DNA from: a virus
Reading direction: 5' to 3' (one strand)
Virus record (IMG/VR): IMGVR_UViG_3300035670_001441
Span: 1 to 20,750 of that record
DNA length: 20,750 bases
The notes below the pieces were generated by a model that saw only the letters and a program-made list of their open reading frames with translations, was not told where the DNA came from and did not search any database. This document shows positions 2 through 12,868 of the stretch, piece after piece; position 1 is the first letter of the stretch, and the number at the start of each line of letters is the position of its first letter. The position numbers and the translations under genes were made by a program.

Positions 2-850
2 GCCGCCGGTCTAGACCCCACCACAGGCCGCCCGCTGGCCTCTGCTGGTGCGTCCAGCCGCATGAAGCGCATTGACCAAGAGCCTGCGGCCAACCGCAAA
101 GGCGATGAGTTCTTTTTGTTGCGTCCAGACACGGCTCCCTTAAACGACCGAATACAACTCACCCATCGCGGTCTTATCTCTTTTGCATCACGCACCGGAG
201 GCGTAATTACTTACTCCGCAAATGAAGGGCCGAATAATTCCCCTGCCTTGATTGCAGAGAATACGCCCCGTGGTAATTATGTCGGCATAACCGGGAGGTT
301 TCCGTTTGAAGGTTCCACAAGCCGCTTCAAGGAAGGGGTCAGGGATTTTACATTCCAGTATTATGTAAAGTTCGGCGGACCCTTTGGTTATCTCTATGAC
401 TGGGTTGACATTGTTGTAAGGCTTGGCTCTAGGGGCTTTGTTGACATCATTGCCGGTGTGGAATCACGGGTTGGTGGCGAGCTATATGCTCAAGTCACCA
501 TGGGGGTAAGAGAAGACATTGGCAAGCCCACGACTGAGCTAATTGATTCATCCGAGCCTATAGGCTCTGGCAATGGCCCGCCTCTGACGCCAGGTGAATG
601 GCATCACCTAGCCGTATCAAAGCAAGGTAGCAATCTTTATGCGTTTTTTGACGGACAGCTTGTTGGCTCTGCGGTTGTTTCTTGGACGACTATGGTCTTT
701 CAGTCAACCCCAGCAAGTGAATGGCTAAAAATAGAGTACGGCGTTAATAGTGTTCAATCCATAGCATCAGCGCCTGTGTATCTACACGGCCTGCGTTTTG
801 ACCCCAAGGCCCTCTACACGGACAACTTCACCCCACCGCCAAGCCTCTAA
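2..850 (+). CDS. LamG/concanavalin-like tail fibre or receptor-binding protein, 3' part (5' partial)
   Basis: The reading frame is open to the left edge of the window, so the ATG at 62 is probably internal and the gene begins upstream. The protein has a LamG/ConA-type beta-sandwich pattern: an FTFQYYVKF strand, then GEWHHLAVSKQGSNLYAFFDGQLVGS, a form of the W-HlAv...ly-FvdG-lvG signature of LamG domains. Such domains are common near the C-termini of phage tail fibres and bind carbohydrate or host surface. The base composition is visibly more AT-rich than the following genes, which fits frequent exchange of receptor-binding modules. It shares ATG/TAA bases with the next small gene at 850. That it is a fibre is inferred from the fold and its position before tail-type and lysis genes. 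Confidence 0.6.
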   Translation, partial: AAGLDPTTGRPLASAGASSRMKRIDQEPAANRKGDEFFLLRPDTAPLNDRIQLTHRGLISFASRTGGVITYSANEGPNNSPALIAENTPRGNYVGITGRFPFEGSTSRFKEGVRDFTFQYYVKFGGPFGYLYDWVDIVVRLGSRGFVDIIAGVESRVGGELYAQVTMGVREDIGKPTTELIDSSEPIGSGNGPPLTPGEWHHLAVSKQGSNLYAFFDGQLVGSAVVSWTTMVFQSTPASEWLKIEYGVNSVQSIASAPVYLHGLRFDPKALYTDNFTPPPSL

Positions 851-969
851 TGACCGACCCACGCGCACTGATCCAGCGGGCGCAGGCCCAGACCCAGGCC
901 AACCGCTATGCGTTTGTCCTTCGCGCCGCTAACGCTAAGCTAGTGAATACTATCCGTGCAGCTAAGTGA
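850..969 (+). CDS. Small 39-aa phage protein
   Basis: A 39-codon ORF begins with ATG at 850, overlapping the TAA of the tail fibre gene (TAATG). It ends with TGA at 967-969, overlapping the GTG start of the next gene. The protein is Ala/Gln/Arg-rich and predicted helical (MTDPRALIQRAQAQ at the start, LRAANAKLVNTIRAAK at the end) with no membrane segment. Precise stop/start overlap on both sides is the main support that it is real. Function unknown; similar small basic helical proteins sit between fibre and chaperone genes in other phages, but I recognise no family. Confidence 0.6.
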   Translation: MTDPRALIQRAQAQTQANRYAFVLRAANAKLVNTIRAAK

Positions 970-1550
970 CCGTGCTCCCCTTTGTTCAGTCTCCGGCTGA
1001 GCAAACGACCCGTCGCCTTGGCACCCCCACATCCGGCATCCTCGAGATGCCTGTGATCGGTGGCCTGACCGTGGATGAGTCGGCCATCATCTCTGAACTC
1101 TTGGCCACCCAGCAATCGGCCTTTGTCACTGGTGCTGGCGCTGCAGACGTGATCGCCAAGTCAGAGGAGATCAGCCTGACGGAAGCCTTCCAGATCATTG
1201 AGAAGGCCGTCATGGGCAAACCCTTGGAAGGTGCCGCTGATCAGATCAGGATCCGCCACGCGGACCGCATTGCAGAGGTGGCCAAGGTCTATGCCAAGGC
1301 TGGTCAGGTCAACATGGAGGCGACCGTGACCGCCCTGATCCGCTGCCGCCTGAACCTGCCCGAGTGGTCCGTCGCTGATACCAAGGGGCTGCACAAGGCG
1401 CTCTTTGATGCGATCTGGGAGCTTGCGCAAGAGGAGCAGACTGCCGAAGCAATGCCTTCCTCTCCGCCGTCTGAGGAAGACCTGGGAAAGCAGCCAGCGG
1501 CCACTGGTCCCAGCAGGAAGCCGACTGGGAAGCGATCTTCTGGGAACTAG
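966..1550 (+). CDS. Probable tail assembly chaperone, short form (gpG-like)
   Basis: A GTG start at 966 overlaps the preceding TGA and gives a soluble protein of 194 aa. Residues about 33-160 are Ala/Glu-rich and helical; the C-terminal 40 residues are a Pro/Ser/Glu-rich disordered tail. Codons 174-175 (GGA AAG) lie in the heptamer G GGA AAG at 1484-1490, identical to the slippery site used by lambda G/GT. The -1 frame is open from 1475 to 2137. In long-tailed phages a short chaperone and its -1 extension bind the tape measure protein during tail assembly. The assignment rests on this frameshift layout, not on residue similarity, and no tape measure gene is visible nearby, so the exact role is inferred. 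Confidence 0.6.
   Translation: MTVLPFVQSPAEQTTRRLGTPTSGILEMPVIGGLTVDESAIISELLATQQSAFVTGAGAADVIAKSEEISLTEAFQIIEKAVMGKPLEGAADQIRIRHADRIAEVAKVYAKAGQVNMEATVTALIRCRLNLPEWSVADTKGLHKALFDAIWELAQEEQTAEAMPSSPPSEEDLGKQPAATGPSRKPTGKRSSGN
1484..1490 (+). other. Candidate -1 programmed ribosomal frameshift site (G GGA AAG)
   Basis: The heptamer GGGAAAG matches X XXY YYZ in the zero frame of the 966 gene (CTG GGA AAG). It is the same heptamer as in lambda gene G. After slippage, decoding continues at GCA 1490 in the frame that runs to 2137. The -1 frame is closed at 1472-1474 (TGA) and the zero frame at 1548-1550 (TAG), so the site sits inside the only permitted window. A small hairpin is possible just downstream (CCAG 1494-1497 with CTGG 1504-1507). 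Confidence 0.75.
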
Positions 1551-2137
1551 CCCACGGGTATCCCGGCCAGTTCCAGCGGTTGACCTTTGGCCGTGAACGC
1601 AGGACCGTTGTCCTTAGGGCTTGGCGGGCACTGCACAAGATCCGCCGTGACCAGGCGGCCTTGACCGAGCTGCCGATGGCGCAGTTGACCAGCCTGATGG
1701 CCAACATCAACCGCGACCCCAAGAAGGCCAAGCCCTTCTCTCTCTACGACTTCACCCTGTTCAATGAGAAGCCAGACGATGGCAAGGGCCAACTGAGCGC
1801 TGAGGTGGCGGCTGTGGCCTTGGCCCTGCGGCATGAGGACCGTGCGCCACGCAGCGTGCTGGCCGTCTGGGATGCGATCCTCGCTGCCGCCACTGAGCAG
1901 GGCAGTGTGCCGCCCATCCGTGCGCTGGCCAGCAAGGATGACCATGTGTGGGTGCTGGCGCCGAAGTTCGAGGGCCAGCATGTGCGCGGCGGGCTGGTCT
2001 GCGTGACCGGCCAGGCCCATGGCGTGCTGGAGGTCTATGACATCGACCGCCCGCTGGCCTGCTATCAGGTCAAGGTGCCCAAGCGCCCTTTGGCCGGCTG
2101 GATCGAGGCCGACCTGCTGCTGGCGGGGGAAACCTAG
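1490..2137 (+). CDS. -1 frameshift extension of the tail chaperone (gpT-like part of a GT fusion)
   Basis: This is the 215-residue segment reached by -1 slippage at 1484-1490, giving a fusion of about 390 aa with the 966 gene. The segment before the first ordinary start is clearly protein-like (DWEAIFWELAHGYPGQFQ), so coding sense begins well upstream of the TTG at 1580, the only plausible independent start. That TTG has no Shine-Dalgarno sequence. The rest is a soluble alpha/beta protein with a possible beta-rich C-terminal domain (HVWVLAPKFEGQHVRGG; PLACYQVKVPKRPLAGW). I recognise no family. In lambda, the T part of gpGT recruits the major tail protein; a similar role here is inference from the arrangement. 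Confidence 0.6.
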   Translation, partial: AASGHWSQQEADWEAIFWELAHGYPGQFQRLTFGRERRTVVLRAWRALHKIRRDQAALTELPMAQLTSLMANINRDPKKAKPFSLYDFTLFNEKPDDGKGQLSAEVAAVALALRHEDRAPRSVLAVWDAILAAATEQGSVPPIRALASKDDHVWVLAPKFEGQHVRGGLVCVTGQAHGVLEVYDIDRPLACYQVKVPKRPLAGWIEADLLLAGET

Positions 2138-2158: not shown

Positions 2159-2542
2159 ATGACGGTGCTCGAGCTGCGCAATGCACTGGCCGCCTTGTTG
2201 ACCAGCAGCATTGGCACCTACACGCTGGGCAATGGTTCGACCACACCGGCCATCTCGGTCAGGGCGGTGGGTGAGCGGCTGCCGATTGGGACCACCGTCA
2301 CCGGCATGGAGGTGGTCATCGTGCGTGACCCTGAGCTGAACCCAGTGACGGCCTACAAGGAACCGGGAGCATTCAGGGAGTGGACCGTTTACTTAGTTGA
2401 CTGGTCTGATGCAACGAGCCTCGAGGCCCCTGCAGCAGCCATCGTCGCGGCCTATCCCGGCACCCTGGTGCAGACCGCCAGCGTGCCCAAAGGCGTGGGG
2501 CCACAGAACCAAATGGAGCTGACGATCAGGTTCCAGCAGTAG
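2159..2542 (+). CDS. Tail completion/terminator-like structural protein (tentative)
   Basis: An ATG start is preceded by AGGAGG at 2143-2148, ten bases upstream, one of the few strong ribosome binding sites in the window. The 127-aa soluble protein has an N-terminal helix (LELRNALAALLTSSIGTY), then alternating beta strands including GMEVVIVRDPELNP and REWTVYLVDWSD, a helix (SLEAPAAAIVAAYPG) and a last strand QMELTIRFQQ. That helix-beta order and size resemble small tail terminator or neck proteins, and the gene lies after the chaperone pair. I do not recognise a named family, so the role is inferred from size, fold impression and position. Confidence 0.45.
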   Translation: MTVLELRNALAALLTSSIGTYTLGNGSTTPAISVRAVGERLPIGTTVTGMEVVIVRDPELNPVTAYKEPGAFREWTVYLVDWSDATSLEAPAAAIVAAYPGTLVQTASVPKGVGPQNQMELTIRFQQ

Positions 2543-3343: not shown

Positions 3344-3543
3344 CCGGTCTGCACTGGAGCGTCGATGACATCCGCATCGTGGGCGACATCATCGCCGGCA
3401 GCCTCTTGGCTGGTGCCCTGCGGCTGATTGTGCTCAAGGCCTTTCTTGAGCCGGTCGCGGCCTACATCGGCCAGCAGGCCTACCGCAGGGCAGACAAGGC
3501 CTTAGGCGACCGCCTGCCTGATCTCCCGATTGCTGAGCCATGA
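3340..3543 (+). CDS. Small membrane-associated protein (lysis region)
   Basis: The 67-aa product starts at an ATGA overlap with the previous gene and ends in an ATGA overlap with the lysozyme gene at 3540. A hydrophobic segment spans residues about 14-35 (GDIIAGSLLAGALRLIVLKAF), followed by an amphipathic Arg/Asp-rich tail. Tight coupling to the lysozyme is the main functional hint. Holin or antiholin are possible; there is no family signature. Confidence 0.5.
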   Translation: MTGLHWSVDDIRIVGDIIAGSLLAGALRLIVLKAFLEPVAAYIGQQAYRRADKALGDRLPDLPIAEP

Positions 3544-4172
3544 CCAAGACTCCTGTTCAGTTCCTTGATCTGTTCCGGTACTACAAGGGGCTGCCGCATC
3601 AGATCGCGGCCCTGACGCAGCTCGGTGAACTGATCCCGGCCAGCCTGCTCCATCGAGAGAACGAGTGGTTCCATACGTGGAGCCAGGCCGGCAAGCAGCC
3701 TGATCCCGACTGGCTGCAGCCTGCCCTCGACATCATCCGCGAGTTTGAAGGCCTGCGGCTGGAGGCGTACCGCTGCCCTGCTGGCGTCTGGACGATCGGC
3801 TACGGCACCACCCGCTACCCCGGCAGCGATGGCGGCCCTGTCCGCAAGGGTGATGTCATCACCGTTCAGCAGGCTGAGTTCTATCTGATCGACGCCCTGC
3901 AGAACCTCTATGTGCCCAACATCTTCCACCTGATCCCTGCGAGCCGTCACTGGGCCGGTCACCGCATCGCAGCCTTGGCCAGCTGGGCGTACAACGTCGG
4001 TCTCGGTGCGGTGGAGACCAGCACCCTGCGGCGGCGGATGAATGACGACGAGCCGGCCCACATCGTCGCCCAACAGGAACTGCCCCGATGGAACAAGGCC
4101 AATGGCCAAGTGCTGGAGGGCCTCACCCGCCGCCGTGCCGCTGAGGTCAAGCTGTTTCTTGGAGAGCAATGA
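3540..4172 (+). CDS. Phage lysozyme (GH24 muramidase), endolysin
   Basis: The 210-aa protein has a GH24 (T4 lysozyme type) domain from about residue 60. Aligning with T4 lysozyme, the catalytic Glu is E70 (EFEGLRLEAY), the position of T4 D20 is C79 (YRCPAGVW) and T26 is T85 (WTIGYGT); the 9 and 15 residue spacings match exactly. Cys at the second position is familiar among phage GH24 enzymes. The enzyme cleaves the MurNAc-GlcNAc bond of peptidoglycan at lysis. About 60 N-terminal residues before the domain are unassigned and there is no classical signal peptide, so release probably depends on a holin. The start is set by ATGA overlap at 3540; the end overlaps the transpeptidase-like gene. Confidence 0.9.
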   Translation: MTKTPVQFLDLFRYYKGLPHQIAALTQLGELIPASLLHRENEWFHTWSQAGKQPDPDWLQPALDIIREFEGLRLEAYRCPAGVWTIGYGTTRYPGSDGGPVRKGDVITVQQAEFYLIDALQNLYVPNIFHLIPASRHWAGHRIAALASWAYNVGLGAVETSTLRRRMNDDEPAHIVAQQELPRWNKANGQVLEGLTRRRAAEVKLFLGEQ

Positions 4173-4681
4173 TCGGACCCACCAAACGCCCACACGACTT
4201 TGGTTTCAAGGTCGGTGACCATCACATCGTCGTCAACGATGCTTCTGAGACTGCTAAGGCGTTTACGTTCTTCGGTCAGCAGATCTGGGAACTGCCGTGC
4301 CTGGCACGTGGCCAAGGCAGTGATTATGAGTTCCGACTTGTCCGCACCGACACACCACCGGGCCTATATCAGGTGGGTCAGATTTACCGTGATTACGAGA
4401 CTGCGGGCAAGCATCCGGCCTACGACCGGACGTTGATGAGCTACGGCTGGTACTCGTTCGACATGATCGACCTCGAGCACCAGGAAAGCCGCTACGGCAG
4501 GGCCGGCATCATGCTGCATGGTGGTGGCTCAGCGTGCGGGTGGCCTGGGGCCTGGGCACCGATGCAGAAGCTCTACGCGACTCATGGTTGCCTGCGGATG
4601 CATAATGTGCATCTGCGCGATGAGGTGCTGCCGCTGACCCGCTCCGGCACGCTGTTCATCTCGGTTTGGCAGGAGGGATGA
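4169..4681 (+). CDS. YkuD-type L,D-transpeptidase-like protein
   Basis: The 170-aa protein carries the YkuD signature: IMLHGGG with H117, then ATHGCLRMHN, the [S/T]HGC-[R] motif, with likely nucleophile C141 and H139. The family uses a Cys thioester to crosslink or edit peptidoglycan stem peptides. There is no signal peptide or anchor. The gene overlaps the lysozyme by ATGA at 4169 and the next small membrane gene by ATGA at 4678, so it belongs to the lysis block. It may act in lysis, wall modification or particle entry; which one cannot be read from sequence. Parts of the gene (around 4200-4400) are less GC-rich than its neighbours. Confidence 0.82.
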   Translation: MIGPTKRPHDFGFKVGDHHIVVNDASETAKAFTFFGQQIWELPCLARGQGSDYEFRLVRTDTPPGLYQVGQIYRDYETAGKHPAYDRTLMSYGWYSFDMIDLEHQESRYGRAGIMLHGGGSACGWPGAWAPMQKLYATHGCLRMHNVHLRDEVLPLTRSGTLFISVWQEG

Positions 4682-5086: not shown

Positions 5087-5353
5087 GTGGCCTGGGGCGA
5101 TTGGTTGGTGCCAAAGCTGAGCGTTTCAGCAGAAGCGCAGATGCACCACACCGTCCATGTGCTGCAGCGGGAAGGGCCAGAGAACGTTGACCAGCTGGTC
5201 AGGATCGCCTGCTCACTGGCCCAGCAGAACGCTTTGCAGTCGGCCATCATCCGTCAGGCCATTGGCCACATCAGCCTGCTGGAGATGACGATTGAGCTAG
5301 ACCGCAAGCAGCCCCCAGGGGTCTGGCGCCGGCTTCTCAACCTGTTTCGTTAG
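5087..5353 (+). CDS. Small hypothetical helical protein
   Basis: A GTG start yields 88 aa with good protein character (VDQLVRIACSLAQQN, then IRQAIGHISLLEMTIELDRK) and a basic C-terminus ending LLNLFR. It is predicted soluble and helical. The last 57 bases overlap the end of the sigma factor gene on the opposite strand, and its start lies close to or inside the minus-strand ORF ending at 4884. Function unknown. A separate plus-strand promoter is not obvious in the short upstream gap. Confidence 0.5.
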   Translation: MAWGDWLVPKLSVSAEAQMHHTVHVLQREGPENVDQLVRIACSLAQQNALQSAIIRQAIGHISLLEMTIELDRKQPPGVWRRLLNLFR

Positions 5354-6223
5354 CAGCATGTGCCGCTGGATTTGGCGGTACGCCCGATCTGCCTGCAGCC
5401 TGATCGCCTCACGGCTGACATTGAGCTTTCGGCCAATTTGCGCCCACGTCTGTGGTTCTGTGCCGTCGATGCCGTAGCGCATCTTGATGATCATCTGCTG
5501 CTTGGGCGTGAGCATGTTCAGGGCCTGTTTGATCAGCTCGACGTCGATGGAATCCGAAACCTGCTCGAGGTGGTCTGTTGCGGTAGCGCCATCGCCTAGG
5601 AGGGTGCCCAGCTCTGAGCCGTCCTCTGTGACGTTGGCCTCCAGGCTGGCGCAGGGTCCACCGATCAGCAGTGCCCGCTCGTATTCATCGACCGTCAGCT
5701 TCATGGCCTTGGCCATCTCGGCTTTGGTCGGTGGGCGGCCCAGTTCAGCGGTCAGCTGGGTCATGATGCGGTTGTGGGCCATGAACCGCTCGGCCACCTG
5801 ATGGGGCAGGCGAATGGTCCGTCCGTTCTGCTCGATGCCACGGGTGATCATCTGGCAGATCCACCAGTAGGCATAGGTTGAGAACTTGTAGCCCCGCTCA
5901 GGGTCCCATTTCTCGACGGCACGGATCAGGCCGAGGATGCCGTCTTGCATCATGTCCTCTGGCGCTGCATTGAAGCCGCCGAGGCCCCGTTGCCGCTTGC
6001 GGCAGATCGAGGCGACCAGCTTGATGTTGGCTGAGATGACGCGATTGCGAGCGGCCATCCCACGCTTGATGATCCGCTGTTCCTGCTTGGTGTAGGGAGC
6101 GGGTTTGGCCTCCTGCAGGCGGATCATGGCCTGCACCCTGCGGCCCAGGTGGATCTCCTCATCAGCGGTCAGGAGTGGAATCCTGCTGGCCTCATTGAGG
6201 AAGACATCAAGGCTGTCTTTCAT
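5297..6223 (-). CDS. RpoD-type (group 2-like) sigma-70 factor encoded by the phage
   Basis: The 308-aa protein shows sigma-70 regions in order: 1.2 at residues about 5-35 (FLNEASRIPLLTADEEIHLG), region 2 about 60-140 with core-binding helices and the -10 recognition segment YKFSTYAYWWICQMITRGI at 112-130, region 3 about 140-215, and region 4 about 235-290 with a helix-turn-helix (AQIGRKLNVSREAIRLQ). It resembles cyanobacterial group 2 factors. Unlike the host consensus, the recognition helix has AIRLQADRA in place of RVRQIEARA, and region 2.1 has an altered loop (RGLGGFNAAPEDMMQDG). It probably redirects host RNA polymerase to phage promoters. It starts 2 bases after the dcd stop, as part of the early operon. 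Confidence 0.9.
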   Translation of the reverse strand: MKDSLDVFLNEASRIPLLTADEEIHLGRRVQAMIRLQEAKPAPYTKQEQRIIKRGMAARNRVISANIKLVASICRKRQRGLGGFNAAPEDMMQDGILGLIRAVEKWDPERGYKFSTYAYWWICQMITRGIEQNGRTIRLPHQVAERFMAHNRIMTQLTAELGRPPTKAEMAKAMKLTVDEYERALLIGGPCASLEANVTEDGSELGTLLGDGATATDHLEQVSDSIDVELIKQALNMLTPKQQMIIKMRYGIDGTEPQTWAQIGRKLNVSREAIRLQADRAYRQIQRHMLLTKQVEKPAPDPWGLLAV

Positions 6224-6225
6224 GG

Positions 6226-6747
6226 CTAGAGGTGCCCCCGACTAGCTGTGACGGTCAGGTCGCCGTTGTAGTGACCTTTGACGGCATACGACTGCAGAGG
6301 AACATCAGCCATCACATAAAACAGCATCTGACCAATCTTCATCCCCGGCCAAATTGCAACCGGGTGAAGTTGCCGGCTGTTGTGCAGCTCGAGTGTCATT
6401 ACTGAGCCGTGGAAGCCAGGATCAGCGAATCCGGCCAGCAAGTGCTCAATGCCTTCCCGCGCCCTGCTCGACTTGAGAACGAACTGCGCCGCAATGTCGT
6501 TTGGAATGTTGAAGACCTCAAGGGTATGAGCCAGGACAAACTGCCCAGGCCTCATCCAGTACGGATTGTCTTGGCTGTGCTTGGCAAACGGGTAGGGGAC
6601 CAGCTCCGGCGATTCCGCGCTCTCGATCAGCAGCGTGTCACCCAGGCGCACATCAAGGCTGGCCGGGTTGAGCAGCTCCGGGTCAAACGGTGTGACCATG
6701 CCCGTCTCGCAACGGGTGGCCAGCATGTAGTCACAGAGAATGGCCAT
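6226..6747 (-). CDS. dcd: dCTP deaminase
   Basis: Read from ATG 6747 (GGAAG ribosome-binding-like sequence five bases upstream), the product is 173 aa, near the usual length for dCTP deaminase. A longer frame upstream is an out-of-frame reading of the preceding small gene. Motifs: SLDVRLGD at about 30-37, LKSSRAREG at 91-99 (dCTP/phosphate binding), AGFADPGFHG at 105-114, and TLELHN with catalytic E120. The enzyme deaminates dCTP to dUTP, feeding thymidylate synthesis. Whether it also acts as a bifunctional dUTPase cannot be told. The start overlaps the previous stop as TGATG; the sigma gene follows directly. Confidence 0.88.
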   Translation of the reverse strand: MAILCDYMLATRCETGMVTPFDPELLNPASLDVRLGDTLLIESAESPELVPYPFAKHSQDNPYWMRPGQFVLAHTLEVFNIPNDIAAQFVLKSSRAREGIEHLLAGFADPGFHGSVMTLELHNSRQLHPVAIWPGMKIGQMLFYVMADVPLQSYAVKGHYNGDLTVTASRGHL

Positions 6748-6905
6748 CAGGCTTCCGGTTGTTGGTTGTCGGTCTGGTGTTCCATCAGCTGCAGGACATG
6801 CAGCGCAAAGGCGGTGTGGGTCATGACGGCATGGACACCAGGGCTGCGGCCATAGCTCTCCATCCACCACTCCTCAAAAGCAGCGACCATGGCGGTCTGG
6901 TTCAT
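6747..6905 (-). CDS. Small 52-aa early protein
   Basis: A 52-codon minus-strand ORF from ATG 6905, overlapping the TGA of the upstream DNA-binding gene (ATGA), to a TGA at 6749-6747 that overlaps the dcd ATG. The protein is acidic-aromatic at the start (MNQTAMVAAFEEWWMES), then His-rich and helical (HAVMTHTAFALHVLQLM). Exact overlap on both sides and continuous protein-like composition support it. No family recognised; a similar WW-containing small protein could be an early host-takeover factor, but this is speculative. Confidence 0.65.
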   Translation of the reverse strand: MNQTAMVAAFEEWWMESYGRSPGVHAVMTHTAFALHVLQLMEHQTDNQQPEA

Positions 6906-7836: not shown

Positions 7837-8057
7837 GGGATTGGAGGAAGGTTGTAGTGGGCGCGGAGGATGCGGTGGGCCATACCGCTCAGCGTCAGAC
7901 CGTTACTGGCTGCATCGGCCTCGAGCAGTTCACGGGCATCAGGCCAGACGTAAACGCCAACGCGATGGCCGCGATCACCGTCAAAGAGCTGGCGGCGGAG
8001 CTGGGATGCCTCGCTGCTGCGACCAAGGCGTTTGCGTTCGTTAGGCCTAGTGGTCAT
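7833..8057 (-). CDS. Small ribbon-helix-helix-like DNA-binding protein
   Basis: The 74-aa protein has a charged N-terminus of about 30 residues followed by a pattern like CopG/Arc: strand RVGVYVWPDARE, helix LLEADAASNG and helix LTLSGMAHRILRAHY. ATG 8057 overlaps the previous gene's stop and its TGA overlaps the next ATG, so it is translationally coupled. It probably dimerises and binds DNA, perhaps an early regulator. The fold call is from pattern only. Confidence 0.55.
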   Translation of the reverse strand: MTTRPNERKRLGRSSEASQLRRQLFDGDRGHRVGVYVWPDARELLEADAASNGLTLSGMAHRILRAHYNLPPIP

Positions 8058-8314
8058 GAGTCAGAGAGAACGTCCCAAGCATCAAGGCGGTCTGAGGCAT
8101 TCGGGTCAAAGGTGAAAACCACGCTGACCACCTGCACATCAGGGATCTTGTAGAACTCCCTGGTGGCCCGCAGTTGCTCAAGCACAGTTTCCATGAGGCT
8201 GTAGCGGAAGCCCTTCCGTGGGTCGGGGCTCCAGGTCAGCCGTCCGTTCAGCGCACCGGAGAGGTACTGCCCGGTCTGCGCGTTTTGAATCAAAAAGCGC
8301 TCCCGTTTCAGCAA
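8054..8314 (-). CDS. Hypothetical protein, coding part in the -8054 frame (start uncertain)
   Basis: Protein-like sequence begins around LKRERFLIQNAQTGQYLSG and continues to DAWDVLSDS. The frame is open further upstream to an ATG at 8485, but that part is Ser/Thr/Pro/Arg-rich and looks like a shadow of the ORF in the other frame. TTG 8314 is a possible start giving 86 aa, with only a weak ribosome binding site. The ATG at 8485 does overlap the ERF stop as ATGA, which is the operon's usual start pattern, so a longer form is possible. Alternatively this is the second half of a gene frame-shifted relative to 8178-8516. Confidence 0.45.
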   Translation of the reverse strand: MLKRERFLIQNAQTGQYLSGALNGRLTWSPDPRKGFRYSLMETVLEQLRATREFYKIPDVQVVSVVFTFDPNASDRLDAWDVLSDS

Positions 8315-8516
8315 GTTGCTCGAGGTCGGCTGTGATGCGCTCGAGCAGGGCTTTGCGGCTGCAGTGGCTGCCGTAGGCCGTGATGCGTGATTCAAAGGCT
8401 GCCGCTGAGAAGACTTCGTGGTCGATGGCTTCAAGCTGGCGCGTCGCGGCATTGAGGTGGCGGAGCGCATGGACGATGTGGTCATGGGTTGCCACCAGTG
8501 AGAGAGGAAACGGCAT
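8178..8516 (-). CDS. Hypothetical helical protein, overlaps next gene out of frame
   Basis: ATG 8516 or GTG 8495 opens a frame whose first ~75 residues are clearly protein-like and helical (HALRHLNAATRQLEAIDHEV; RKALLERITADLEQLAETG). The last ~35 residues (Arg/Pro/Leu-rich) look non-coding, while the other frame becomes protein-like from about 8310. The two therefore behave as one gene shifted by +1, or as two genes overlapping by about 137 bases. No family recognised. The gene start overlaps the end of ERF (stop at 8482). Confidence 0.5.
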   Translation of the reverse strand: MPFPLSLVATHDHIVHALRHLNAATRQLEAIDHEVFSAAAFESRITAYGSHCSRKALLERITADLEQLAETGALFDSKRADRAVPLRCAERTADLEPRPTEGLPLQPHGNCA

Positions 8517-9189
8517 CGGTCAGAAAGCTGATGTGCTCTTGGGTTTTGATTTGATCCGCGATGCCGACGTTGGGTGGGGTGCCGAAGCGTGCGCGGAACT
8601 GATCGACCACGGCTGAGCGCTGATCAGGGGCCAAGGCCGTGATGGCCTGCTTGATGGCCTGAAGGTCTTCTGCGGTAGCAGCAGGCGGGCCGGCGGGTGC
8701 TGCTGGCCGTGACTGGGTAGCAGGCGCAGGCTTAGCGGCAGCGCGGCTGGTCTTGTTAGTGCTAGCAGCCTTGGGCTGGTCAAAGGCATCCCCGTCATCA
8801 TCTGGAATGCCGGCGGCCAGGCCGAGGATCGCCAGGATCGCGTAGCGCCGCTGATAGGTGCAGGCTGCACCGAAGTCATGGAGCGGGTTACCTCGGCTCG
8901 ATGTGGGGAGGATCAGGGGCAGCTCAGACCTCTCCTCTTCGCCTGAAACATGCTTGATGCTGGTGCAAAGGATCATTCCAGTGCCATCTTGAGATGGCCA
9001 CGGCTTAAAGGTCTGTGAAAGCCTTATGTTGCAATCCGCGAGCTTCGGGAGGATTTCGGCAAGCACAGTGGAAAGATCTGCGTAATTGCCGTATTGAGCC
9101 TTAGATGTCTCGTGAATTGTCCGAACGGACTTGTGAAATTCAACGAGAGCAGCAGTCAGTTGGCTGCCTTGCTGTGATTGTGCGCTCAT
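8482..9189 (-). CDS. erf: ERF-family single-strand annealing protein
   Basis: The 235-aa protein carries the ERF core at residues about 20-140: SVRTIHETSKAQYGNYADLS, then EILPKLADCNIRL, a GMILCTSIKHVSGEEERSEL strand pair, and the hallmark GNPLHDFGAACTYQRRYAIL followed by IPDDDGD. ERF proteins anneal complementary single strands during phage recombination and genome circularisation. A long Ala/Pro/Thr-rich linker (about 145-175) leads to a helical C-terminal region, usual in ERF. The first residues contain QGSQLTAAL, which recurs at the start of the upstream endonuclease gene. ATG 9189 overlaps that gene's TGA (ATGA). Confidence 0.9.
   Translation of the reverse strand: MSAQSQQGSQLTAALVEFHKSVRTIHETSKAQYGNYADLSTVLAEILPKLADCNIRLSQTFKPWPSQDGTGMILCTSIKHVSGEEERSELPLILPTSSRGNPLHDFGAACTYQRRYAILAILGLAAGIPDDDGDAFDQPKAASTNKTSRAAAKPAPATQSRPAAPAGPPAATAEDLQAIKQAITALAPDQRSAVVDQFRARFGTPPNVGIADQIKTQEHISFLTDAVSSLTGGNP
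9145..9171 (-). repeat. Duplicated 27-bp coding segment, ERF copy
   Basis: Codons 7-15 of ERF encode QGSQLTAAL. They match codons 8-16 of the endonuclease gene at 9945-9971 in 22 of 27 bases; all five differences are third-position synonymous changes. The start region of erf was probably copied when the endonuclease inserted, or arose from a related erf allele. Confidence 0.75.
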
Positions 9190-9992
9190 GACGCCACCAG
9201 TTCAAAAGACTTTTTTTGATAAGGTGCCAATTCGGACGGGCATCCATCTTTGCGCCAGCGCTCGTGGCTCCGCTTTGACATTCCAAGGCTTGCGGCCTCC
9301 TGTCTAATCAAGGCCTTCCGCTGACGTTCCTTTTCCAAGGCATTTGCCTTTATCTGGGCCTTGTGCTCCTGAACACTAAGCCCCTTGCTCTGTGCCGCGA
9401 GGGCAACGCGTGTGTCAACAGAGCGACGGTAATTGGCAAAATGGCTGGCCGACATTGTTCGGCCCTTCTGTGCCAATGAGATCAACCGTCGTGTCTGCTC
9501 GGACTTCGGCCTAAGTCCAATTGACCTAATGGCTTCAATCTGCCTTTCCGAAACAGGTCTTTGCCGCATGAAGGCAGAGATTCTGTTTCTTGTCTCGACA
9601 GAGGGATTCTGCATGCCCTCGCCTCCGTCACTTAAGTTGCGGAGGATGCCTGTACCGAGATCAATTCGGCCGTATCGCTTGATGAAGAACAGTTCCCAGG
9701 CTGCTGCTTGCGCCTTGGTCAGATTTCCTCTAAGCACTACGACATACCGTCTGTCTTTCGGCACGGAGATACCGTGCTTGCGATGGCCATGCTGGCAGAG
9801 CGCACGACGATAGCCAGTGGAAACGCCGATGTAGTAAGGGGTCTGATCCTCGCTGCGCAGGTATGCATACACACAAGTGGTATGCCTCGCTGTTGCAGCC
9901 TTGATGTGCGAGGCAAGGTGCCTCGCGGTCTTTAGGGGTGGAGAAAGGGCAGCCGTCAGCTGACTGCCTTGCGGGGTAGGGGAAGCAGGCAT
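9186..9992 (-). CDS. GIY-YIG homing endonuclease
   Basis: The 268-aa protein has a GIY-YIG nuclease domain at residues about 38-120: CVYAYLRSED (GIY position), PYYIGVSTGYRRAL (YIG with the Arg), and AAWELFFIKRYGR with catalytic E100. Two short NUMOD3-like DNA-binding repeats follow (PSVETRNRISAFM near 130, KSEQTRRLISLAQKG near 163) and a basic helical C-terminus. It probably cuts an intronless erf allele and spreads by homing. The composition is less GC-rich than neighbours. Residues 8-16 (QGSQLTAAL) match the ERF N-terminus, and the stop overlaps the ERF start, as if the gene had been inserted at the erf start. First gene of the leftward operon. Confidence 0.85.
   Translation of the reverse strand: MPASPTPQGSQLTAALSPPLKTARHLASHIKAATARHTTCVYAYLRSEDQTPYYIGVSTGYRRALCQHGHRKHGISVPKDRRYVVVLRGNLTKAQAAAWELFFIKRYGRIDLGTGILRNLSDGGEGMQNPSVETRNRISAFMRQRPVSERQIEAIRSIGLRPKSEQTRRLISLAQKGRTMSASHFANYRRSVDTRVALAAQSKGLSVQEHKAQIKANALEKERQRKALIRQEAASLGMSKRSHERWRKDGCPSELAPYQKKSFELVAS
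9945..9971 (-). repeat. Duplicated 27-bp coding segment, endonuclease copy
   Basis: This encodes QGSQLTAAL in the homing endonuclease, identical in protein to the segment at 9145-9171 in ERF but with five silent differences. It lies just inside the gene start, upstream of the GIY-YIG domain, so the endonuclease appears to use the original erf translation start. Confidence 0.75.
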
Positions 9993-10852: not shown

Positions 10853-12526
10853 CTAGCGGCTTTCTGCATCTTCCCTCGCCCTGCTGCCGTGCGCAATACC
10901 GAAATCTGCCGCCTCTTGTAGTACCCCTTCGCTTTCCGCTAATCTCGCCCCCGCCCAGAGGACCCTCCGGTCCAGTGGCCGCAAGGTCTGCCACTCCATC
11001 GGCCCGCTCCCCAGCTGCAGTCCCATCCGGCGCTCATCCCCGTCCAGCACGATCCGCAGCCCCAGGTCCACCAGGCAGCGGTTCACGGCATGGCGCTGCT
11101 CGCGGGTGTCTTCCCCTAGCGCAAACGCCTGACGGAACGCTTCCAGCGGCTCCCTTGCTGCCTCGGATTTGCTGCCCTTCTGCCGCATGGCCAGCTCCAT
11201 CTCCACGGCCTGCAGCTGCTGCTCGATGCCTGCCGCCTCCTGTTGCCTGGCCTTGAGCTGCTCGGCCAGCACGTCCACCGCCTGGCCCACTTCCGCAGCC
11301 TGCACCAGCGCCTTCTGCAGGTTCTGGCGTTTTCGGTCCAGCTGGGCCAGCTCTGTCCTGAGGTGATCAGCCCGGTTGCGCAGACCCTCCACCTGATCGT
11401 CAGCCATGCAGGCATTGACCATGGCCAGCAGCGCCTCTGGCTCCAGCCGCCGCAACAGGTGGGCCGTCGCCTCCAGCAAGGGCACAGGGCTCCTGCGGCA
11501 CCCGTCCTTATGGCTTGAGCGATGCCGGCAGAACAGATACCGGTGCTCGCTGCCGCCACTGGTCTGTAGCCCCAGCCTGGCCCCGCAGACGCAATAGCTC
11601 AGCCGCTGACCCACCCAGCGCATCAGGCCATTGGGTCCAGCTTGCTCAGCCGTCCGCCCACGGGCATTGATCAGCCCGCGTATGGCCAGCACCTCCTCCT
11701 TCGGGACGATGACCGGCAGCATCCCCTCGATGACCACCTCGCCATCAGCGGTGCCGTAGTGCTTGCGGTTCCGCAGCCGAATCGCGCCATAGACCCCATC
11801 GGTCAACATCGCCAGCGTCCTGACCGAGCTATTGGTCCAGCGGTTGCCGGAAGGCGTCAGCAGGCCTTGAGCATTCAGATCACGGCTCGTGGCCGAGCAT
11901 CCCTGATACCGCAGCAGTTCAAACACCTTGCGGACCACTGCCGCCTTCTCAGGGATGACCACATAGCCCTGGTCCGTCCATTCACACCAGCCAGGGCAGA
12001 ACAGGTTGGGCCTGGCCATGACCTTGGCCTCGAGCTTGGCCCGGTCCGCTTCCCAGCGGTCCTTCATCCGCATGGCCAGCCGTGCGCTGTATTCGTAGGC
12101 CGCCTGGATCTTGACCACCAGCACAATCAACCGGGTCGGGTCCGTGCGCAGCGTCTCCCTGCTGTATTCCGCCCCGTCCTCCAACGTCACGATCCTCACC
12201 CCGGATCCGACCAGGCCGCTCAGGATCGTCTCGATGGCATCCAAGGGTTCCTGGCGGCTGAGGCGGTCGATGGCCTCGACCAGCAGCAGCGGCGACGGCC
12301 CCAGCTGACCCGATTGGGCCAGGTTCAGGAATCGCCCCAGCGCCCCACGGGACAGGTGGTGGCCCTTGGAGGCTGAGCGCCCCGCATCCGACAGCTGCAG
12401 GCTCGTGTCGAGGGTCAGGCCATGACGTGCGGCCCACTGCTGCGCACCGTCGCTCTGACGCCCAAGGCCGCGGCCTGTGACCTGCTGTCTGGAGCTGACG
12501 CGCTCGTAGGAGAAGACCCTGCTCAT
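10853..12526 (-). CDS. Large serine recombinase (phage integrase)
   Basis: The 557-aa product is read from ATG 12526 (MSRVFSYERVSSRQQ); upstream in-frame sequence is a shadow of the plus-strand genes. The resolvase domain covers residues about 1-150 with nucleophile S11 in YERVSS and the motif EAIDRLSRQE. A recombinase domain follows about 165-290, then a Cys-rich zinc ribbon (YCVCGARLG, later YLFCRHRSSHKDGC), then a long coiled coil about 390-470, and a C-terminal domain. Large serine integrases insert phage genomes at attB without host factors. Location beside the repressor candidate and small regulators fits a lysogeny module. Confidence 0.88.
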   Translation of the reverse strand: MSRVFSYERVSSRQQVTGRGLGRQSDGAQQWAARHGLTLDTSLQLSDAGRSASKGHHLSRGALGRFLNLAQSGQLGPSPLLLVEAIDRLSRQEPLDAIETILSGLVGSGVRIVTLEDGAEYSRETLRTDPTRLIVLVVKIQAAYEYSARLAMRMKDRWEADRAKLEAKVMARPNLFCPGWCEWTDQGYVVIPEKAAVVRKVFELLRYQGCSATSRDLNAQGLLTPSGNRWTNSSVRTLAMLTDGVYGAIRLRNRKHYGTADGEVVIEGMLPVIVPKEEVLAIRGLINARGRTAEQAGPNGLMRWVGQRLSYCVCGARLGLQTSGGSEHRYLFCRHRSSHKDGCRRSPVPLLEATAHLLRRLEPEALLAMVNACMADDQVEGLRNRADHLRTELAQLDRKRQNLQKALVQAAEVGQAVDVLAEQLKARQQEAAGIEQQLQAVEMELAMRQKGSKSEAAREPLEAFRQAFALGEDTREQRHAVNRCLVDLGLRIVLDGDERRMGLQLGSGPMEWQTLRPLDRRVLWAGARLAESEGVLQEAADFGIAHGSRAREDAESR

Positions 12527-12537
12527 GCCCCTGAGCA
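12520..12537. repeat. Inverted repeat at the integrase start codon
   Basis: TGCTCA-TGCCCC-TGAGCA is a perfect 6-bp-arm inverted repeat that includes the integrase ATG (minus strand 12526-12524) and a second in-frame ATG at 12538. It could hide the start in an mRNA hairpin or bind a regulator. Confidence 0.4.
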
Positions 12538-12625
12538 TACGTGCGCGAATCTGCGACCCAGTACCTGCTCTGGGATGCAGATAAGCGCATGGGGGTGTAG
12601 GCTGTGGGAGTCGGCAGAGCGAGGC

Positions 12626-12868
12626 ATGGCCCGCCACCGGCACCCCCCCCTCGCCCGGCACTGGCCGGTTCCATCCATGTCCATCACCTGCATCGCTGCG
12701 TGGGCGCTCGCCCTGCTGCTGCTCCCCGTCCTGATCCTTCTCTGGGCCACCGAGACCCGCACCCAACGCATCCGCCGCTGGCGGAAGGAAGGCATGACGC
12801 AGAAGGCGATCGCCCAACGCCTTGGGTGTTCCCTCTATCAGGTGCGCAAGGCCCTCGTTACGGTCTGA
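12626..12868 (+). CDS. Membrane-anchored helix-turn-helix protein
   Basis: From ATG 12626 the product is 80 aa (63 aa from ATG 12677). A hydrophobic segment (SITCIAAWALALLLLPVLIL) spans the membrane and is followed by a basic stretch (RTQRIRRWRKEG) and a helix-turn-helix, MTQKAIAQRLGCSLYQVRKAL, like homeodomain-like or transposase HTHs. The predicted topology puts the DNA-binding part in the cytoplasm. Divergent from the integrase, it may control it or the lysogeny choice. Longer readings upstream of 12626 overlap the integrase start and look non-coding. Confidence 0.55.
   Translation: MARHRHPPLARHWPVPSMSITCIAAWALALLLLPVLILLWATETRTQRIRRWRKEGMTQKAIAQRLGCSLYQVRKALVTV

Follow-up and report, generated by a model that had tools for sequence, protein, structure and literature searches.

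A putative lambda-type G/GT tail-assembly chaperone gene with a conserved −1 slip site on the fibre side of the tail genes in a cyanophage-like virus lineage

The lambda tail genes G and T are joined at the slippery heptamer G GGA AAG. Their products, G and GT, are tail assembly chaperones made with a −1 frameshift (Levin 1993 and Xu 2004, as summarised in PMC5009743). In siphophages the usual gene order is major tail protein, chaperones, tape measure and minor tail proteins (PMC3706429), and in lambda the order is U-V-G-T-H. The frameshift mechanism described below is of this well-known kind, and what is new is a strongly supported member of the group and the place where it is found. The window, by which we mean the whole stretch of DNA that was analysed, is a 20,750-base virus record (IMGVR_UViG_3300035670_001441) in which no end repeats were found. 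On sequence grounds, we assign with high confidence two overlapping frames of the window to a putative lambda-type G/GT tail-assembly chaperone gene with a −1 frameshift. The initial annotation had called them a probable tail chaperone pair, a reading that is supported here by a match to PF06223, by the conservation of the slip site and by a terminator-like neighbouring gene.

The zero-frame open reading frame (ORF) of the G-type tail assembly chaperone lies at positions 966..1550 on the plus strand, begins with GTG and encodes 194 aa. Its codons CTG (1482-1484), GGA (1485-1487) and AAG (1488-1490) place the plus-strand heptamer G GGA AAG at 1484..1490 in the zero-frame register, and this is the sole in-register X_XXY_YYZ heptamer of the ORF. 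The −1 open frame, which encodes the T domain, extends over 1475..2137 on the same strand with its stop codon at 2135-2137. Joined to G at position 1490, it would give a GT fusion of 175 + 215 = 390 aa, for which the predicted junction reads ...EEDLGK followed by AASGHWSQQEADWEAIFWELAHGYPGQFQ, the T part starting with AASGHW. The first −1-frame start codon 3' of the heptamer is a TTG at 1580. The initial annotation had given the register of the heptamer, the opening of the −1 frame at 1475, the closing of the zero frame at 1550, a fusion of about 390 aa and a first normal start at 1580, and each of these is correct. It had also described the −1 frame as protein-like well before any start codon, which agrees with a −1 coding signature that begins right at the heptamer in homologues.

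Protein searches returned 75 viral contigs plus further loci, including the cyanophages P-SS2, S-CRES1/2/3, S-CBS2 and S-CBS4, and the alignment of homologues that had been proposed as a check was carried out. A slippery heptamer (GGGAAAG, AAAAAAG or GGGAAAA) is retained at the homologous position in 72/72 loci examined from viral contigs. The cyanophage isolates P-SS2, S-CRES1, S-CBS2 and S-CRES3 also carry an in-register slippery heptamer, S-CBS4 has the in-register slippery site A AAA AAA, and a prophage of Trichocoleus sp. FACHB-40, with a homologue at 33% identity, has GGGAAAG at the site. Codon choice was counted in 54 clusters below 90% nucleotide identity. The glycine codon at the slip site is GGA in all 35 clusters that have one, compared with a background of 10% of Gly codons, and the leucine codon before AAA AAG is CTA in 8/8 clusters, compared with a CTA background of 7.6% of Leu codons. 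Before GGA AAG the leucine codon is CTG or TTG (27/27 clusters); the codon ahead of the slip site thus covaries with, and always matches, the form of the heptamer. On a tree of 55 rows, built without the slip site, GGGAAAR and AAAAAAG were exchanged approximately seven times, with strongly supported branches requiring at least three of these exchanges, and a non-slippery state at the site is absent from all 55 rows. Given that the protein changes between LGK and LKK while the slip site is retained, the conservation points to selection on the slip rather than on the amino acids.

Purifying selection is seen in both frames from the codon-position variability across homologues. Before the heptamer, column variability is highest at zero-frame position 3 (1.30-1.44 bits). 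Right after the heptamer the peak is at zero-frame position 2 (1.11 vs 0.75 and 0.88 bits), and it is still there farther downstream (1.24 vs 0.67 and 0.75 bits). Zero-frame position 2 corresponds to the third codon position in the −1 frame, hence the coding frame switches at the heptamer. No conserved downstream RNA structure was found, with RNAalifold returning no pairs for 34 sequences, and single-sequence RNA folds were no better than shuffles, except in S-CRES1 (z −3.0). Upstream of the slip site there is a purine-rich GAGGA (1473..1477, plus strand), and an element of the GAGGA/GGAGG/GAGG type occurs in 28 of 33 window-like sequences, nearly always starting 11-12 nt before the heptamer. 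We keep it as a weak candidate for a Shine-Dalgarno-like element that could possibly stimulate slippage by anti-SD pairing, because GAGGA also encodes a conserved Glu-Glu.

The −1 frame of the window matches Pfam PF06223 (Phage_tail_T, lambda gpT) with an E-value of 2.5e-5 and 25.0 bits, the curated cutoff being 25.9 bits, and PF06223 is matched by 23 of 49 T homologues (best E 5.3e-6). The frame also matches the PHROG tail families 337 and 5297, as well as phrog_34388. From its profile matches, the T part is classed as homologous to the lambda gpT family (PF06223); the direct hhalign comparison of the T profile with lambda T was not significant. In approximately 50 window-like viral contigs the homologues of G have 48-84% identity, whereas identity falls to about 20-33% for those of the cyanophages and the Trichocoleus prophage. 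The window G has no significant match in Pfam or PHROG, and its profile was not significant in a direct hhalign comparison with lambda G. The structure model of G is confident (mean pLDDT 83) and consists mostly of helices, and from residue 175, just beyond the slip site, its C-terminal tail is disordered. A fold search gave no significant named match in the PDB or BFVD; BFVD gave two strong unnamed matches, and entries named as chaperones matched only weakly. The virion proteomics table of P-SS2 lists ORFs 61-63 and 66-69, and the G/T homologues, ORFs 64/65, are missing from it (PMC2784084, Table 2). This is as expected, given that in lambda neither chaperone product, G or GT, is found in mature virions (PMC5009743). 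The P-SS2 paper makes no mention of frameshifting or chaperones (PMC2784084), and a frameshift annotation is absent from the named relatives that were examined.

Directly upstream of the pair is a LamG-domain tail fibre-like gene (2..850, plus strand; Pfam Laminin_G_3, E 3.3e-6), cut at its 5' side by the contig end. Downstream, the gene at 2159..2542 (plus strand) travels with G/GT and is homologous to S-CRES1 gp75, S-CBS2 gp18 and S-CBS4 gp29, and its homologue in the Trichocoleus prophage directly precedes the tape measure. The PDB fold matches of its model (pLDDT 87) are mostly phage neck and tail terminator proteins (T5 p142, R4C, T1, GTA and others), which are mutually consistent, each with an E-value of only approximately 0.004-0.3. 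By its predicted fold (gpU/T5 p142) and its neck/tail synteny, this gene probably encodes a tail terminator protein.

Elsewhere in the window, at 3540-4681, the lysis block has an endolysin gene and, immediately after it, an L,D-transpeptidase-like (YkuD) gene, which is an unusual pairing. A full sigma-70 factor and a dCTP deaminase are encoded at 5297-6223 and 6226-6870 (minus strand), and both gene types also occur in P-SS2. The 268-aa ORF at 9186-9992 (minus strand) is GIY-YIG-looking by eye, has no Pfam match and has no match among the ORFs of relatives. Its first residues, QGSQLTAAL, repeat the start of the adjoining ERF recombinase gene (8482-9189), with a 27-nt direct repeat of 85% identity. 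The ORF has the appearance of a homing endonuclease that was inserted recently and thereby duplicated the start of its target. A large serine recombinase (10853-12817, minus strand) suggests a temperate phage; apart from one distant match, the genome collection yielded no related prophage.

The position of the pair, after the LamG fibre-like gene and before the lysis block with no tape measure following, had been pointed out as unusual, and the same order is present in close relatives. In these (G001-G003, G005 and G006), the pair comes after tape measure, tip and fibre genes and is followed by the terminator, with lysis genes next. The tape measure in G002 is recognised by PHROG tape measure families. 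Across approximately 50 window-like loci, tip and fibre genes are found upstream where the contig reaches, and the terminator is found downstream. The contig starts within the fibre gene, which is why the window has no tape measure, and from relatives at 77-84% protein identity we infer that it lies upstream of the pair in the window's own phage as well. Hence, the pair is not between the major tail protein and the tape measure in this lineage. We treat a location before the tape measure as a common, but not a functional, criterion for G/GT. To judge from the contigs compared, the unusual position is a real, lineage-wide rearrangement. The major tail protein/tape measure slot of the window-like lineage has two conserved minus-strand genes. 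These neck/connector-like genes are at L019:7785-8592 (minus strand), and likewise in G001, G005 and G006, in a late region that is otherwise on the plus strand. Both have plus-strand homologues in the Trichocoleus prophage (L102:11510-12433), which separate GT from the terminator, and by this comparison of gene orders the two minus-strand genes are an inverted piece of a structural operon. No related chaperone pair was found in KBS-S-2A, MED4-184 and S-H1, the nearest terminase relatives.

Several other explanations of the locus were considered. If the two frames were independently translated genes, with T starting at the TTG at 1580 or a nearby codon, the heptamer would be incidental. The TTG is start-like, and the annotations of S-CRES1 and P-SS2 list two separate genes, but no −1 start codon is conserved across loci in place, class or ribosome-binding site, and several loci (L065, L066, L069 and L093) have no −1 start codon within the first 60 codons. 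In addition, the −1 frame is conserved starting at the heptamer, which is itself invariant. The combination named at the outset as refuting a frameshift, an intact start at 1580 with no conserved heptamer, was sought in the homologues and is absent, given the lack of a conserved start, and we consider independent translation very unlikely. It is just as hard to credit that the fusion is made by transcriptional slippage on an A run rather than by ribosomal slippage. Even though runs of A6 or A7 occur in some homologues (AAAAAAG, and AAAAAAA in S-CBS4), the A run is limited to three in the GGGAAAG of the window and of most homologues, and the preceding codon is tuned for X XXY YYZ two-tRNA pairing, which polymerase slippage does not need. 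A −1 break seen in one contig alone could be a sequencing error. However, the same break with the same heptamer is present in 77 loci (69 distinct), isolate genomes included, and purifying selection in both frames argues against a decaying frameshifted gene; error and decay are refuted by the comparative data, have next to no probability and were rejected.

The frameshift fusion could also be made by a pair that has been put to another use, such as chaperoning fibre assembly, given that in the window-like lineage the pair directly follows the fibre gene, away from the tape measure. However, the pair stays linked to the tail-terminator-like gene, and in S-CRES/S-CBS2, S-CBS4 and Trichocoleus the homologous pairs are located near the tape measure. 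A search of window-like contigs detected no further G or T homologue outside the pair, and in this lineage the slot that normally carries the chaperones, ahead of the tape measure, has no plus-strand chaperone pair. We regard repurposing as quite improbable. It is also unlikely that in this uncultured cyanophage-like lineage the fibre-side G/GT has gained an altered role, for example in fibre or tip assembly besides its role with the tape measure.

A lambda-type G/GT chaperone gene is hence the preferred reading, in which slippage, how often it occurs and the action of the products as chaperones are inferred. Most ribosomes would stop at 1550 and produce the 194-aa G protein, and a minority would slip from GGA AAG to GGG AAA at 1484-1490 and read on to 2137, producing the 390-aa G-T fusion. 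By analogy with lambda, G would coat the tape measure protein, GT would recruit the major tail protein to the tape measure, and both would depart before the tail is completed. The conserved tail-chaperone frameshift is extended here to several cyanophage groups in which it has been recorded as two separate genes. As a natural experiment, the repeated swapping of two slippery motifs while the protein goes from LGK to LKK is unusually clean. Since the chaperone module is not restricted to its slot ahead of the tape measure, such pairs will be missed by tools and annotators that rely on position.

Compared with lambda, the window pair has the same heptamer, the same slip direction, a short 3' overlap, a zero-frame chaperone plus a fusion, and a PF06223 T domain. 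It differs in that the window G has 194 aa, whereas lambda G has 140 aa, with no detectable sequence similarity. In lambda the pair is between the major tail protein and the tape measure, whereas in the window lineage it comes after the tape measure, tip and fibre genes. P-SS2 ORFs 64/65 are homologous to G and T, have an in-register GGGAAAG and are followed by the terminator homologue, but they are annotated as two genes and are approximately 19 kb upstream of the tape measure. S-CRES1/2/3 and S-CBS2 have a homologous G/GT with AAAAAAG or GGGAAAG and the terminator homologue downstream. Their gene order differs, and in loci of this type it is G/GT, HNH (minus strand), terminator, major tail protein and tape measure. 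In S-CBS4 (gp31-gp34), the homologous G/GT has A AAA AAA, and the order is terminator, a gene at the major tail protein position, G/GT and tape measure. The deposited gene calls of S-CBS4 (L013) split the pair at 7998-8971, where the G ORF is connected through the in-register A AAA AAA at 8498 with a −1 frame that includes the annotated gp33. The Trichocoleus sp. FACHB-40 prophage shares a homologous G/GT with GGGAAAG, but has the pair between the major tail protein and the tape measure, with neck genes and the terminator intervening.
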